Made by a program: the position numbers and the translations under genes. The notes under the pieces are model-generated. The model worked only from the letters and a program-made list of their open reading frames with translations. It did not search any database and was not told the origin of the DNA. Source: Curtobacterium herbarum (GTDB taxonomy: Bacteria > Actinomycetota > Actinomycetes > Actinomycetales > Microbacteriaceae). From it: DNA of 64,000 bases. Shown here piece by piece: positions 254 to 3,768 of this stretch (its first letter is position 1; each line of letters starts with the position of its first letter). The stretch is from assembly GCF_016907335.1 (NCBI RefSeq), contig NZ_JAFBBT010000001.1, positions 2,666,001 through 2,730,000 of the forward strand, in the 5' to 3' direction.

Positions 254-595
254 CTACCTCGCCTGGTCGCCCTCGGCTGCGCCGACGAACCGCGGGCGGC
301 CGTCCGCGTCCACGGGCTGCTGCCCACCGCACGTCGCCGCAGCGTCCCGCAGTCGGCGGATGAACGCGGCGTCTTCCGGCTCGAGCTCGTCGTCCGGTGC
401 CTCCCGCACCACGATCTCGCTCGCCGGGCCGATCAGCATCGTCGTCCGTTGCACGGCGCCGTCCTCGCCGACCGTCGGCACCGCGATCGTGTCCGTCCGG
501 ATGTTCGCACCGAGGACCGCCGCGTAGTCCGCGATGGCGTCGGCGATCAGGTCCCCCGTCAGGATGTCCGTGCTGTCGTAGTGGATGAACTTCAC
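254..595 (-). CDS. small hypothetical protein, 113 aa
   Basis: The open frame extends far upstream, but the GTG at 595 is chosen because GGAGGG precedes it at normal spacing and the protein then begins (M)KFIHYDSTDILTGD. The product is acidic and soluble, with no signal peptide or membrane segment. A valine/isoleucine-rich middle (residues about 35-70) is followed by an acidic stretch (APDDELEPEDA) and a helical C-terminus. I do not recognise the family. It is convergent with the partial gene at the window start and divergent from the XRE-MNT gene; the roughly 185-bp gap between them carries a heptamer repeat. Confidence 0.65.
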   Translation of the reverse strand: MKFIHYDSTDILTGDLIADAIADYAAVLGANIRTDTIAVPTVGEDGAVQRTTMLIGPASEIVVREAPDDELEPEDAAFIRRLRDAAATCGGQQPVDADGRPRFVGAAEGDQAR

Positions 596-720
596 GTGTC
601 GCCCTCCCTCGTGCCGACGGTAGGCACCGGGGTGGGGCACGCAGTACAGGATCGGGCACGAGGCGCGGGCGGTGGACAACTGGCCGTGTGCGCTCGCCTC
701 ATCCACAGCCCGGTAGCGTC

Positions 721-748
721 GATCGTCGATCGTCGATCGTCGATCGTC
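721..748. repeat. (GATCGTC)x4 heptamer repeat
   Basis: Four perfect head-to-tail copies of GATCGTC, with a further diverged copy around 755-763. The array ends about 32 bases before the ATG of the XRE-MNT gene, in its promoter/leader region. A regulatory role (operator cluster or copy-number-variable spacer) is an inference from position only. Confidence 0.8.
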
Positions 749-780
749 AAGCGGCGATCGTCGAGCGGTGAGGAGTTGCC

Positions 781-1245
781 ATGCAGCACGAGCACATCGC
801 GCGGCTGATCCGGCTTGCGCGTGAGGACGTCGGCATGAGCCAGGAGGCGCTGGCTGCCGTCGTCGGTGCGGCGGCGTCGTCGATCGCGGCCCACGAGGCC
901 GGTTCCGAGACACCAGACCCCGAGACACTGCAACTGATCACCGCGGCGACCGAGATGCGGCCGAGCATCCCGCTCGTCGTCCACGCCGACCGGATCCGAG
1001 CCGAAGCCACACGTCATCGTCTTCACGACGTGCGGGTGTTCGGATCGGTCGTCCGCGGGACCGACACCGCACGGAGCGACGTCGACCTGGTCGTCGGGAC
1101 CGAGCCGGGCGCGGACCTGTTCGACCTCGGCGGCTTCGTCGTCGCCGTCGAAAGGCTCACCGGGTTCCCCGTCGATGTGATGACTGAGGAGCAGCTCGAC
1201 GATGAGTACTTCGCGCACGTGCGGGACGACGCCGTCCCGTTGTGA
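781..1245 (+). CDS. XRE helix-turn-helix / MNT nucleotidyltransferase fusion (antitoxin-like)
   Basis: 154 aa, ATG preceded by GAGGAG. Residues about 5-62 form a Cro/C1-type helix-turn-helix (RLAREDVGMSQEALAAVVG...). Residues about 70-150 are a minimal nucleotidyltransferase domain with the family signature GSVVRG (88-93), S99-D100-x-D102, and a third acidic residue at D132 in FPVDV. MNT proteins of this kind act as antitoxins that AMPylate a partner HEPN ribonuclease; the helix-turn-helix suggests autoregulation. The stop is 23 bp from the stop of the convergent Abi_2 gene, which is itself HEPN-type, so the two may form a defence or toxin-antitoxin locus. The pairing is inference; the domain calls come from motifs. 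Confidence 0.8.
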   Translation: MQHEHIARLIRLAREDVGMSQEALAAVVGAAASSIAAHEAGSETPDPETLQLITAATEMRPSIPLVVHADRIRAEATRHRLHDVRVFGSVVRGTDTARSDVDLVVGTEPGADLFDLGGFVVAVERLTGFPVDVMTEEQLDDEYFAHVRDDAVPL

Positions 1246-1268
1246 CCGCGACCGTACCGTTCGGCTGC

Positions 1269-2168
1269 TCAACTCCGATGGTCGCGCGATCGCTCCGGAG
1301 CGGTGAGACCGCGCCAGAAATCAGACTCACACGCGTTCTGCTCGACGAGCACTGGCAACATCGGCGCCGAGGTGCCGGTCCGGCTGGTCAGGTCGTCGAG
1401 CGACACGACGACGTCCAGTACAGATCTCGGACCGAACTGCCCGGCAAGCTTCTTGGCGCGGCTTCGGACGTTGTTCGGGGTGGGCCCTGCATCGACCACC
1501 GAGTGATGCCACATCCGGCTTTGGTGCGCGCAACGGTTGCGGAGGTAGACGAGCGCCTTCACGCGCGCAGCGAATCCCGACTTCGCGATCCCGATACTCG
1601 AGGCGACCGCGCCGGCTAGTGTTCCTCGACCACCTCGTTCGATGGTCTTTGACAGCGTCCCGAAGGACAGGGCTTCGACTGCCGACCAGACGGGGAGCTT
1701 GCTGTAGTCGGAGTGCTCGCCCGTCTCGAGGCGATAGCGCAGGATGTGGCGGTCTCTGCTCCGAGCGATGTCCCGACGACAGGATGCAACGGTCGGCTCC
1801 CGGCCGGGGACGTCTGTGTAGAAGTCCCGCTCGAGGTAGCGGACGTACGGCCCATGCTGGTCAGCGATGACTCGAGCCGTGTGCGATCGGAGGAGCAGCT
1901 CTACCTCCGCAAGCGGTCGGACGAGAGCGATCCGGACGGCTTGGTCGGCGTCGTAGACAGCGCGGACCTGCTCGAACGTCGTGCCGGGGTGGAAGTCGTT
2001 GTTCCCGAGGTGCGGGGCAACCTGGAAGTACCGCGCGTAGCCGGAGAAGCGGTAGTAGTTCGATGCCGCCAGGAATCGACGACAAGCTGCCTCGTCGCCG
2101 ATCGCGAGCCCCCGTCGGAGCAGAAGGGCAACCTGCTCGTCCCAAGACAGACTCGGCTTCACGCGCAT
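1269..2168 (-). CDS. Abi_2 (AbiD/AbiF-like) abortive-infection HEPN protein
   Basis: 299 aa from the ATG at 2168, which has GGGGGG directly upstream. An in-frame upstream GTG was rejected because it would translate the hairpin. Family hallmarks in order: SNYYRFSGYARYF (36-48), LPVWSAVEALSFGTLSK (158-174) and LRNRCAHQSRMW (209-220). The last holds the HEPN RNase motif R-N-x3-H (R210, N211, H215). Abi_2 proteins give phage exclusion and are thought to be RNases; some AbiF genes are preceded by a small structured RNA. Here a hairpin with a short T-run ends 19 bp before the start. Third codon positions look less GC-rich than in core genes, which fits transfer. Confidence 0.88.
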   Translation of the reverse strand: MRVKPSLSWDEQVALLLRRGLAIGDEAACRRFLAASNYYRFSGYARYFQVAPHLGNNDFHPGTTFEQVRAVYDADQAVRIALVRPLAEVELLLRSHTARVIADQHGPYVRYLERDFYTDVPGREPTVASCRRDIARSRDRHILRYRLETGEHSDYSKLPVWSAVEALSFGTLSKTIERGGRGTLAGAVASSIGIAKSGFAARVKALVYLRNRCAHQSRMWHHSVVDAGPTPNNVRSRAKKLAGQFGPRSVLDVVVSLDDLTSRTGTSAPMLPVLVEQNACESDFWRGLTAPERSRDHRS

Positions 2169-2182
2169 CCCCCCGCGAACGA

Positions 2183-2226
2183 AAAGGCCCCTCCCATTTG
2201 AGCATCGTCGAGAGGCTTGGGAGGGG
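2183..2226 (-). terminator. attenuator-like hairpin upstream of Abi_2, possible end of a small RNA
   Basis: On the minus strand CCCCTCCCA (2226-2218) pairs with TGGGAGGGG (2196-2188) across a 21-nt loop, followed by CCTTTTCG. This has the form of an intrinsic terminator 19 nt before the Abi_2 ATG. A -10-like TAGAGT lies just upstream (about 2245-2240), so a short RNA of roughly 60 nt ending here is possible. The C-rich 5' arm could also pair with the GGGGGG ribosome-binding site (2169-2174), which would allow a switch between stopping and expression. The hairpin is seen; the RNA and the switch are inference. Confidence 0.6.
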
Positions 2227-2303
2227 GTCGATTGCTTCCACTCTAGCCGAAGCACCGTCCTGCGAGGGTGGCAAGAGTACTCGGTTTTGGGGTCCGTCTG
2301 ACG

Positions 2304-2597
2304 TCAGAGCAGGTCGCCCGTCGGGTAGAGGACCCAGGGGCCAATACCAGTCTCGGGGCAGTGCTCGTCCATCACCCGCGTGACCACCGAGTAGTCCGCC
2401 GGAGCACGGCGGTACATCAGCGTGACGAGGTGGACGTCCGTCTCGACATGGCCGCCGGGCCAGCGGGCCTCGTAGCGGATGGCACGCTTCGGCCGCCGCA
2501 GCCATTGCGGGGGACGGGTCTCCGCGACGGCACGAAAGACCGTCGGCAACTCATCCGCCTGGTCTGACCGCTCGGCTGCAGTTCTGCGTTCCCCCAC
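2304..2597 (-). CDS. small hypothetical protein, 97 aa
   Basis: GTG start at 2597; the last 60 or so codons have the GC3 bias of real genes here, while the first 30 are less typical, so the true start may be internal. The C-terminal half (AIRYEARWPGGHVETDVHLVTLMYRR...GPWVLYPTGDLL) looks like a compact folded domain without membrane segments. The family is not recognised. It sits between the Abi_2 leader and ychF, both also on the minus strand, and may belong to the accessory patch. Confidence 0.55.
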   Translation of the reverse strand: MGERRTAAERSDQADELPTVFRAVAETRPPQWLRRPKRAIRYEARWPGGHVETDVHLVTLMYRRAPADYSVVTRVMDEHCPETGIGPWVLYPTGDLL

Positions 2598-2633: not shown

Positions 2634-3707
2634 TCAGTTGTTGAAGCGGAACTCCACCACGTCGCCGTCCTGCATGACGTACTCCTTGCCCTCGATGCGG
2701 GCCTTGCCCTGCGACCGCGCCTCGGCGATGGAGCCGGTGGCGACGAGGTCGTCGAACGAGATGACCTCGGCCTTGATGAAGCCCTTCTCGAAGTCCGTGT
2801 GGATGACGCCGGCAGCCTGGGGAGCCTTCCACCCCTTGCCGATCGTCCACGCGCGGGACTCCTTCGGCCCTGCCGTCAGGTAGGTCTGCAGCCCGAGGGT
2901 CTCGAACCCGATGCGCGCGAGCTGGTCGAGGCCGGACTCGGTCTGACCCGTCGACTCGAGGAGCTCCTTGGCGTCCTCCGCGTCGAGGTCGATGAGCTCG
3001 GACTCGACCTGGGCGTCGAGGAACACGGCCTGCGCCGGTGCGACGAGCGCTGCGAGCTCGGCCTTCCGCGACTCGTCGGTCAGGATCGCCTCGTCGACGT
3101 TGAAGACGAAGATGAAGGGCTTGGCGCTGAGCAGCCCGAGCTCCTTGATCGGCTCGAGGTCGACCTTGCTCGCCGAGAGCAGGACACCCTTCTCGAGCTC
3201 GGCCTTCGCGGCGGTCGCCGCCTCGAGGACGGCGGGCTCGGCCTGCTTCAGCTTGAGCATCTTCTCGTAGCGGGGCAGTGCCTTCTCGATGGTCTCGAGG
3301 TCGGCGAGGATCAGCTCGGTGTTGATGACCTCGAGGTCGTCCTTCGGCGAGACCTTGTTCGCCACGTGCACGACGTCGTCGTCGGTGAACCCGCGGACGA
3401 CCTGCGCGATGGCGTCGGCTTCGCGGATGTTGGCGAGGAACTTGTTGCCGAGCCCCTCGCCCTCGCTCGCACCCTTGACGATGCCGGCGATGTCGACGAA
3501 CGACACCGGCGCGGGCACGGTCTTCTCGGAGTGGAACAGCTCGGCGAGCTGGTCGAGGCGCGGGTCGGGCAGGTTCACCACGCCGACGTTGGGCTCGATG
3601 GTGGCGAACGGGTAGTTGGCCGCGAGCACCTGGTTCTTTGTCAGGGCGTTGAACAGGGTCGACTTGCCGACGTTCGGGAGACCGACGATTCCGATGGTGA
3701 GAGCCAC
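2634..3707 (-). CDS. ychF: redox-regulated ATPase / translation-associated GTPase-fold YchF
   Basis: 357 aa, the usual YchF length, beginning (M)ALTIGIVGLPNVGKST. The P-loop GLPNVGKST is at residues 9-17; DIAGIVKGASEGEGLGNKFL is the switch II region; FNVDEA replaces the canonical NKxD, consistent with the ATP preference of this OLA1/YchF subfamily. The C-terminal TGS-like domain ends VMQDGDVVEFRFNN. The GTG at 3707 is chosen because the conserved N-terminus begins there; no clear Shine-Dalgarno precedes it. YchF binds ribosomes and modulates stress and redox responses. It is adjacent to but not overlapping its neighbours. Confidence 0.96.
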   Translation of the reverse strand: MALTIGIVGLPNVGKSTLFNALTKNQVLAANYPFATIEPNVGVVNLPDPRLDQLAELFHSEKTVPAPVSFVDIAGIVKGASEGEGLGNKFLANIREADAIAQVVRGFTDDDVVHVANKVSPKDDLEVINTELILADLETIEKALPRYEKMLKLKQAEPAVLEAATAAKAELEKGVLLSASKVDLEPIKELGLLSAKPFIFVFNVDEAILTDESRKAELAALVAPAQAVFLDAQVESELIDLDAEDAKELLESTGQTESGLDQLARIGFETLGLQTYLTAGPKESRAWTIGKGWKAPQAAGVIHTDFEKGFIKAEVISFDDLVATGSIAEARSQGKARIEGKEYVMQDGDVVEFRFNN

Positions 3708-3768
3708 GGGAGGACAGCCTACCGGCGGCAGCCCGGCGGGGCCGACCTGCGCCTCCAGGCCGGCACGC

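Follow-up and report, generated by a model that had tools for sequence, protein, structure and literature searches.

The gene pair described here lies in a 64,000-nt stretch of the Curtobacterium herbarum genome (NCBI RefSeq assembly GCF_016907335.1, contig NZ_JAFBBT010000001.1, forward-strand positions 2,666,001 to 2,730,000), which is called the window below. Near its left end, a gene that fuses a helix-turn-helix (HTH) to an MNT nucleotidyltransferase (HTH-MNT) converges with abiF, a gene for an Abi_2 HEPN ribonuclease, and a hairpin of the abiF RNA type precedes abiF. The stop codons of the two genes are separated by only 23 bp (1246-1268). It is very likely (probability about 0.85) that two unrelated modules stand side by side, namely an AbiF predicted to be restrained by its own leader RNA and an HTH-MntA protein that has probably been bereft of its HepT partner. 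The features are as follows, where G and L numbers are my labels for genomes and loci.

781-1245, plus strand: HTH-MNT fusion gene, an open reading frame (ORF) of 154 amino acids matching PF01381 and PF01909 above their cut-offs.
1269-2168, minus strand: abiF, encoding the Abi_2 HEPN ribonuclease (predicted toxin), 299 amino acids from the ATG.
2189-2224, minus strand: abiF RNA motif, a predicted antitoxin RNA (RF03085, covariation, fold z-score), whose stem is also the likely terminator ahead of abiF.
2182-2233, minus strand: predicted small-RNA span, the conserved block CAATCGACC ... GGCCTTTT, with edges set by conservation across 26 loci.
2240-2245, minus strand: -10-like TAGAGT, a putative promoter of the RNA and abiF, from the upstream regions of relatives.
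721-748, no strand assigned: four tandem copies of the 7-mer GATCGTC ahead of HTH-MNT, from reading the sequence.
1242-1248, plus strand: GTGACCG, tentatively a remnant of a lost HepT start overlapping the HTH-MNT stop; relatives including G050 and G048 have identical letters where HepT starts.
1246-2290, no strand assigned: the AbiF+RNA cassette, missing from the otherwise matching site of G036 (blastn synteny, junction).
2634-3710, minus strand: ychF, the conserved right border of a variable slot, found in 66/66 Curtobacterium genomes.
2304-2597, minus strand: small ORF of 97 amino acids flanking the slot, no significant Pfam match.
254-601, minus strand: small ORF of 115 amino acids flanking the slot, no significant Pfam match.

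AbiF and its leader RNA

The initial annotation had taken the minus-strand gene for an Abi_2/AbiF-like HEPN RNase. The Pfam search agreed, with a match to PF07751 at 107.8 bits (cut-off 25.6, E 1.1e-30), and the protein also matched the PADLOC AbiD model (140 bits, E 2.3e-41). The nearest solved structure by sequence is PDB 8vz6 (E 5.1e-24), which is PbAbiF-ncRNA according to a figure legend of a review (PMC12737573). The HEPN motif R210-N-x3-H215 was found intact, as proposed; it reads RNRCAH and is invariant across three aligned relatives. PbAbiF is reported to require R210 and H215 for its activity (PMC12373285), and the catalytic residues of the window AbiF carry the same numbers by coincidence. 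Two positions past the catalytic His, the three aligned AbiF proteins have Ser, Ser, and Gly, not Tyr. Since relatives begin at the codon ahead of KPSLS, abiF may have an alternative conserved start at the GTG of 2162-2160.

The hairpin ahead of abiF is present as claimed, with CCTTTT after the stem and 19 nt between the stem end and the ATG. That it would be an abiF-type RNA was confirmed by cmscan, which matched RF03085 at 2189-2224 on the minus strand with 47.8 bits, the gathering score being 37, and with E 1e-5 for a scan of the whole window. The folding energy is -21.6 kcal/mol (z -3.5). With E allowed to reach 10, the interval 2000-2700 still gave a single RF03085 match; tandem repeats of the RNA motif, a trait of type III systems, were not seen. 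A consensus terminator scan gave 0 sites although the hairpin and CCTTTT precede the abiF start; the loop probably exceeds the limit of that scan. No site was reported by a sigma-70 promoter scan of the locus. The conserved block CAATCGACCCCCTCCCAAGCCTCTCnnnGATGCTCAAATGGGAGGGGCC-T-run, or the sister form ATCCCCCACGCC...GCGCACTTGGGGGAT, was found in 26 loci. At the -10 position, all 26 relatives have TAnnnT, 21 of the 26 have GCTAnnnT, and 12 of the 26 have GGCTAnnnT. In the 20 distinct rows that represent the 26 relatives, the ten pairs of the Rfam plan are standard pairs in 200/200 cells. Five pairs changed on both sides, a number reached by 14/500 shuffled alignments. The percentage paired and the covariation score were matched by 0/500 shuffles, and the number of pair types by 209/500. 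When the pairing plan was slid along the alignment, no slid version approached the true one.

A protein search gave 19 loci, 14 of which have AbiF relatives with 54-74% identity. They belong to Actinophytocola, Rothia, Clavibacter, Nocardia, Prauserella, Streptomyces, Austwickia, Frigoribacterium, Brevibacterium, and Curtobacterium (G057 and G023). The abiF RNA accompanies all 14 of these relatives of at least 54% identity, and 12 of the RNAs exceed the Rfam cut-off. The remaining 5/19 loci (25-36% identity) gave no RF03085 match at the cut-off. On the other hand, G044, G002, G233, and G114 have the RNA without an intact AbiF. Since the RNA was seen without an intact AbiF while all close AbiF proteins keep their RNA, the predicted RNA antitoxin outlives its toxin gene. 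No plasmid copies of the abiF RNA were found at E 0.01. As judged from these sequence features, the AbiF-RNA module of the window is a member of a published type III-like toxin-antitoxin kind. Since the U-run comes directly after the motif stem, one hairpin would serve as both antitoxin and terminator. In C. difficile, the RNA is reported to bind and neutralise AbiF in trans and to limit abiF expression by early termination (PMC12373285).

No intact Abi_2 was found downstream of several bacterial leader RNAs, namely those at L067 (G002), L148 (G233), L150 (G114), and L219 (G033), as well as L162, L167, L170, L190, L220, and L226. At L149 (G257), the Abi_2 after an abiF-type RNA was matched in two reading frames and looks broken.

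The HTH-MNT gene and the slot beside ychF

The initial annotation had also described the convergent gene 23 bp away as a fusion of HTH and MNT, and both Pfam domains were recovered. The active-site motif GSVVRGTDTARSDVD is an intact GSX10DXD. I surveyed 66 Curtobacterium genomes for this gene. A near-full HTH-MNT is present in 30 of them (the window copy and 29 others at 48-74% identity), with GSX10DXD kept in 30/30 proteins, and a partial copy is present in 4. Most Curtobacterium genomes also carry a more distant relative (33-42% identity). The 34 genomes that have a close copy, whether full or partial, all carry it on the ychF contig, 0.36-20.7 kb from ychF; the orientation differs in G060.

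Does the HTH-MNT protein have a partner of its own? It was found that, in relatives within the genus, a HepT-like HEPN gene (PF01934, RX4HXY) directly follows HTH-MNT, with overlapping stop and start codons in most copies. A search with 14 HepT rows found full-length HepT in 15/66 genomes, always right behind HTH-MNT, and HepT fragments in 5 more; two additional fragments were also seen. All eight HepT proteins scanned matched PF01934 (seven above the cut-off), and 13 of the 14 rows have R-(N/K)-I-L-S-H-D-Y, the L087 row having HDD. Thus, the hallmarks of type VII systems, an RX4HXY HepT and a GSX10DXD MntA in adjacent genes, were found in 15 Curtobacterium relatives. No HepT match was found beside the window HTH-MNT, nor at E 0.001 in the genome of the window. 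The convergent ORF at 1242-1619 (plus strand) was also considered as the site of a HepT remnant; it showed only a forced 27% similarity to the 14 HepT sequences and was dropped beyond the start codon.

The upstream regions differ as well. The palindrome TATAGT-N-TAT(A/G) was matched upstream of 15/15 HepT-paired and 0/15 unpaired HTH-MNT genes, within both 110 and 300 nt, with near misses in G015, G014, and G064. The window has the four GATCGTC copies where HepT-bearing relatives carry TATAGT-N-TATA. On the best tree of the 30 HTH-MNT proteins, HepT presence switches 10 times, and at least 3 switches are forced by well-supported branches. The ratio of nonsynonymous to synonymous substitution rates (dN/dS) was calculated for twelve hand-picked HTH-MNT pairs. 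It was 0.24-0.35 in six orphan-orphan pairs, 0.00-0.14 in four paired-paired pairs, and 0.02 and 0.20 in two mixed pairs. It is likely that the window HTH-MNT is an orphaned HTH-MntA antitoxin whose HepT toxin was lost.

The neighbourhood of HTH-MNT is variable. In G036, with 82-89% DNA identity along the region, HTH-MNT is followed by about 20 nt and then the 97-aa ORF, with neither AbiF nor the RNA. In G044 (92-94% DNA identity), a deletion corresponding to 724-2036 removes HTH-MNT and most of AbiF, so that the RNA and about 46 codons remain; the deletion ends at the left edge of the GATCGTC repeat. In G057, AbiF and the RNA adjoin ychF, and HTH-MNT lies 15 kb away, beyond a prophage-like stretch that contains integrase and tail genes. 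In G023, AbiF and the RNA are on another contig. Prophage-like stretches between HTH-MNT and ychF were found in G057 (L108), G003 (L112), and G007 (L120), all three with phage tail genes and those of G057 and G003 with integrases. Other cargo of the slot includes phage, GmrSD, RelA/SpoT-like, and TIR-like genes (10 of the larger ORFs scanned). Of the slots searched, only those of near relatives contain the 97-aa ORF. As judged from these genomes, the HTH-MNT-ychF interval is an integration hotspot. HTH-MNT borders this variable slot beside ychF, and the AbiF+RNA pair is read as a mobile cassette in the slot because of its scattered occurrence across slots, contigs, and genera, the RNA being kept with all 14 close AbiF proteins.

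A conserved pairing of HTH-MNT and AbiF, for which the initial annotation had proposed a survey of relatives, was not observed. A close AbiF (at least 61% identity) is present in only 3/30 genomes with a near-full HTH-MNT, namely G000, G057, and G023. Conversely, 9 of the 28 genomes with an AbiF relative or an abiF RNA show no PF01909 at E 0.001, and a PF01909 match within 2 kb was found in a single genome, that of Austwickia. By its reading, this Austwickia match is a plain nucleotidyltransferase ORF without HTH; its end lies 0.9 kb upstream, with what reads as a GNAT-type ORF in the interval, and it was not counted as a counterpart. Since the HTH-MNT module and the AbiF+RNA cassette each use the slot beside ychF, their 23-bp neighbourhood in the window is likely an accident of the shared insertion slot.

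Leader hairpins of other Abi_2 genes and solitary abiF RNAs in phages

Is a leader hairpin common among Abi_2 genes? The Abi_2 set of the genus comprised 39 match rows, or 38 genes after two pieces of one gene were merged, and up to 600 nt upstream were inspected. A leader hairpin was found in 37/38: RF03085 in 4, class A in 13, class B in 9, and class E in 11, with none in 1. The class patterns were derived from the same 38 loci; outside the upstream stretches, they matched once in 124 kb. When 15 Abi_2 loci, 12 of them from classes A, B, and E, were compared with Rfam at the gathering scores, only a tRNA was found, and four loci searched at E up to 1 yielded nothing beyond a CRISPR repeat below the threshold. 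In summary, 33/38 Abi_2 genes of the genus are led by hairpins of three classes not found in Rfam. The genome of the window itself has a second Abi_2 gene (G000:C1:183525-184238, minus strand, L065), which has a class A leader hairpin.

Each of the class A, B, and E models was searched against a drawn sample of 299 genomes from the family, using filters that miss weak matches. This gave 63 hits beyond the genus (26 A, 30 B, 7 E), and 23 of them have an Abi_2 directly downstream on the same strand, as detected with a profile of 25 genus Abi_2 proteins. Above 45 bits, a cut chosen for classes A and B after seeing the result, the Abi_2 gene is present behind 10/13 class A and 8/9 class B hits; with 5/7 for all class E hits, the sum is 23/29. 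Below 45 bits, the numbers outside the genus are 0/13 for class A and 0/21 for class B. These weak hits (14 of class A including one in the genus, 21 of class B) have no Abi_2 and were taken as chance matches. The regions of the six strong hits outside the genus without a profile-matched Abi_2 were read out, and none contains an Abi_2. The covariation score was reached by 0/500 shuffles for class B, 0/500 for class E, and 3/500 for class A; 4, 6, and 1 pairs, respectively, changed on both sides, in alignments that lean to the model. The class E model was also applied to the entire window, where its sole hit is the abiF hairpin (17.8 bits, E 0.023). This suggests that the class E and abiF hairpins share a plan of a stem, an A, a 3-bp inner stem, a loop, a CAAA-type linker, and a stem. 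Abi_2 genes with a leader hairpin were also seen at L138 and L139 (Arcanobacterium, Mycetocola); the class E model detects L139 (E 8e-7) but not L138. Two Corynebacterium Abi_2 genes (L137, L140) are led by a hairpin of yet another look.

The abiF RNA was also found in phages. In a collection of 50,697 phage records, a 53-nt query of the window RNA hit 72 (E up to 1), with Mycobacterium (68), Synechococcus (2), and Arthrobacter (2) as hosts; at least 13 phages are listed twice, in RefSeq and GenBank. No Abi_2 was found in phages of these three hosts, while two Abi_2 proteins hit 77 and 62 records elsewhere in the same collection (tblastn). In 7/9 opened regions (Bromden, Lolly9, Lumos, Pomar16, Aziz, S-SZBM1, and Mimi), the hairpin abuts or sits between tRNA genes; the nearest listed tRNA is 1.1 kb away in LittleE and 0.3 kb away in Redno2. 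The solitary abiF RNAs without Abi_2 nearby, mostly by tRNA genes, are at L250-L258, L227, and L229, which come from phage records and viral contigs. Of 12 loci scanned, 10 reached the Rfam abiF cut-off (L231 repeats LittleE), and Pomar16 and Mimi were below it.

I aligned 11 rows including the window and the Arthrobacter phage Mimi (L258), in which two pairs of the outer stem are broken. The cyanophage locus L257, with a linker one base longer, and L231, L232, and L230, which are copies of LittleE, Bromden, and L229, were excluded. The letters of the loop and bulge are mostly retained, and the stem varies with pairing kept in 107/110 cells. Three pairs changed on both sides (reached by 18/500 shuffles), and the covariation score was reached by 0/500. 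A TTTT tail is present only in L227 among the examined phage copies (Pomar16 by eye). Since the loop and bulge are retained and the tail is confined to L227, the phage copies would preserve the predicted AbiF-binding part, not a terminator.

The IMG/VR viral contigs gave exact matches to the abiF RNA (6), class A (1), and class B (16). An Abi_2 follows 1/6, 0/1, and 8/16 of them, respectively (four of the eight as a 75-residue match only), and two loci end within 500 nt. Class B hairpins without Abi_2 were seen beside tRNA-Met in L241 and between tRNA-Trp and tRNA-Asn in L244.

The toxin-less phage abiF RNAs are candidate RNA counter-defences. In the open-licence literature, I found no report of mycobacteriophage abiF hairpins or of this counter-defence reading. 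In a study of Cyanophage S-CREM1, an abiF sRNA is listed, which is again a phage-borne RF03085 hairpin. The authors count three phage genomes in Rfam and consider the sRNA functional during infection; their account of it assigns no counter-defence role and does not treat mycobacteriophages (PMC9964418). The pseudo-ToxI of phage PhiTE (PMC3475682) and the RNA anti-CRISPRs, Racrs (PMC10651486), are likewise described as lone bacterial defence RNAs carried by phages without the protein. In contrast to them, the RNA here is an abiF hairpin, mostly within tRNA arrays, and its function is a candidate only. The chances are about even for a broader picture, in which phages of several lineages use solitary abiF RNAs, mostly in tRNA arrays, to neutralise host AbiF-type HEPN toxins and, at the same time, Abi_2 toxins in general each go with a leader-hairpin class of their own, RF03085 being one.

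Interpretation of the locus

A plausible course of events may be outlined. A promoter near 2245 would give an RNA of about 50 nt, as most transcription would end at the hairpin's own U-run. The abiF RNA would bind AbiF and block its RNase site, and occasional read-through would yield AbiF. If phage infection halts or diverts transcription, the RNA would be lost first, and AbiF would then arrest growth by cleaving RNA, much as type III systems do. The HTH-MNT protein is part of a type VII-like module (HTH-MntA and HepT), which in this genus lies next to ychF. The window lacks both HepT and the palindromic promoter, and the AbiF+RNA cassette fills the slot between HTH-MNT and ychF.

The initial annotation had offered the MNT protein as a second antitoxin, so that the leader RNA and the convergent HTH-MNT protein would both control one AbiF enzyme. 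The genes are 23 bp apart, the catalytic motif of HTH-MNT is intact, and MNT proteins are described as the usual antitoxins of HepT-type HEPN toxins (PMC7641770). However, HTH-MNT has HepT as its own partner in the genus, its pairing with AbiF is not conserved, and the three aligned AbiF proteins have no Tyr at the position that is AMPylated in HepT. A dual antitoxin is thus scarcely credible and was rejected. That the hairpin is a mere attenuator or terminator of abiF, with no protein binding, is also quite improbable. The stem and U-run do stand immediately ahead of abiF, and the C. difficile RNA likewise reduces abiF expression through early termination (PMC12373285). On the other side, the apical loop, the inner stem, and the CAAA bulge are conserved beyond what a terminator needs, the examined phage copies retain these parts while the TTTT tail is just in L227, and RCd22 is reported to bind AbiF and act in trans (PMC12373285).

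The fate of the orphan HTH-MntA is a separate matter. It is possible, although rather unlikely, that it is kept for a new job as a regulator or as an antidote against incoming HepT modules, rather than decaying. GSX10DXD is intact in 15/15 orphans, the dN/dS is below 0.4 in six pairs, and the best tree shows 10 changes in HepT presence, of which the starred branches force at least three. In contrast, the orphan dN/dS exceeds that of the four paired-paired comparisons, the promoter palindrome is matched in 0/15 orphans, and the gene is deleted in G044.

Several points weigh against the reading of two unrelated modules, a predicted AbiF-RNA pair and an orphaned HTH-MntA. The window locus is known from sequence alone, with toxicity, binding, and transcript all predicted, and it has one abiF motif against two in RCd22. 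G002 and G233 might contain overlooked diverged Abi_2 genes. The palindrome pattern was defined after viewing nine paired upstream regions, and the genomes are not independent. The orphan HTH-MntA, with its retained motif (15/15) and a dN/dS of 0.24-0.35 in six pairs, is not clearly a dead gene and may itself serve some function.

Both modules have known counterparts. As described for AbiF-Cd/RCd22 of C. difficile phi027 (PMC12373285) and PbAbiF-AbiFr (PDB 8vz6), the window has an Abi_2 HEPN protein with R-N-x3-H, and as in RCd22 it has an RF03085 hairpin upstream with an early termination, predicted here, ahead of the gene. It differs from AbiF-Cd/RCd22 in that the motif stem itself is the likely terminator and that the module, whose function is predicted, occupies a chromosomal slot by ychF and not a phage lysis module. 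The genus pair shares with the type VII HepT-MntA system, as described in PMC7641770, the PF01934 HEPN protein with RX4HXY and the PF01909 MNT protein with GSX10DXD in neighbouring genes. In contrast to that system, its MntA is fused to an XRE-type HTH and has a palindrome at the promoter, and the window copy is without HepT.

Taken alone, the window locus adds a further AbiF-RNA module to those known; what is new lies in the orphaned HTH-MntA series, the additional hairpin classes, and the toxin-less phage copies. In the HTH-MntA series, the antitoxin gene appears to survive the loss of the toxin several times while the promoter palindrome vanishes, a clean comparative case of module death. 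If leader hairpins across Abi_2 genes act as proposed, they would extend RNA control to much of the common, Cas13-related HEPN defence family. If the phages with the hairpin but without the toxin use it as suggested, they would add a natural RNA counter-defence able to disarm AbiF defence.

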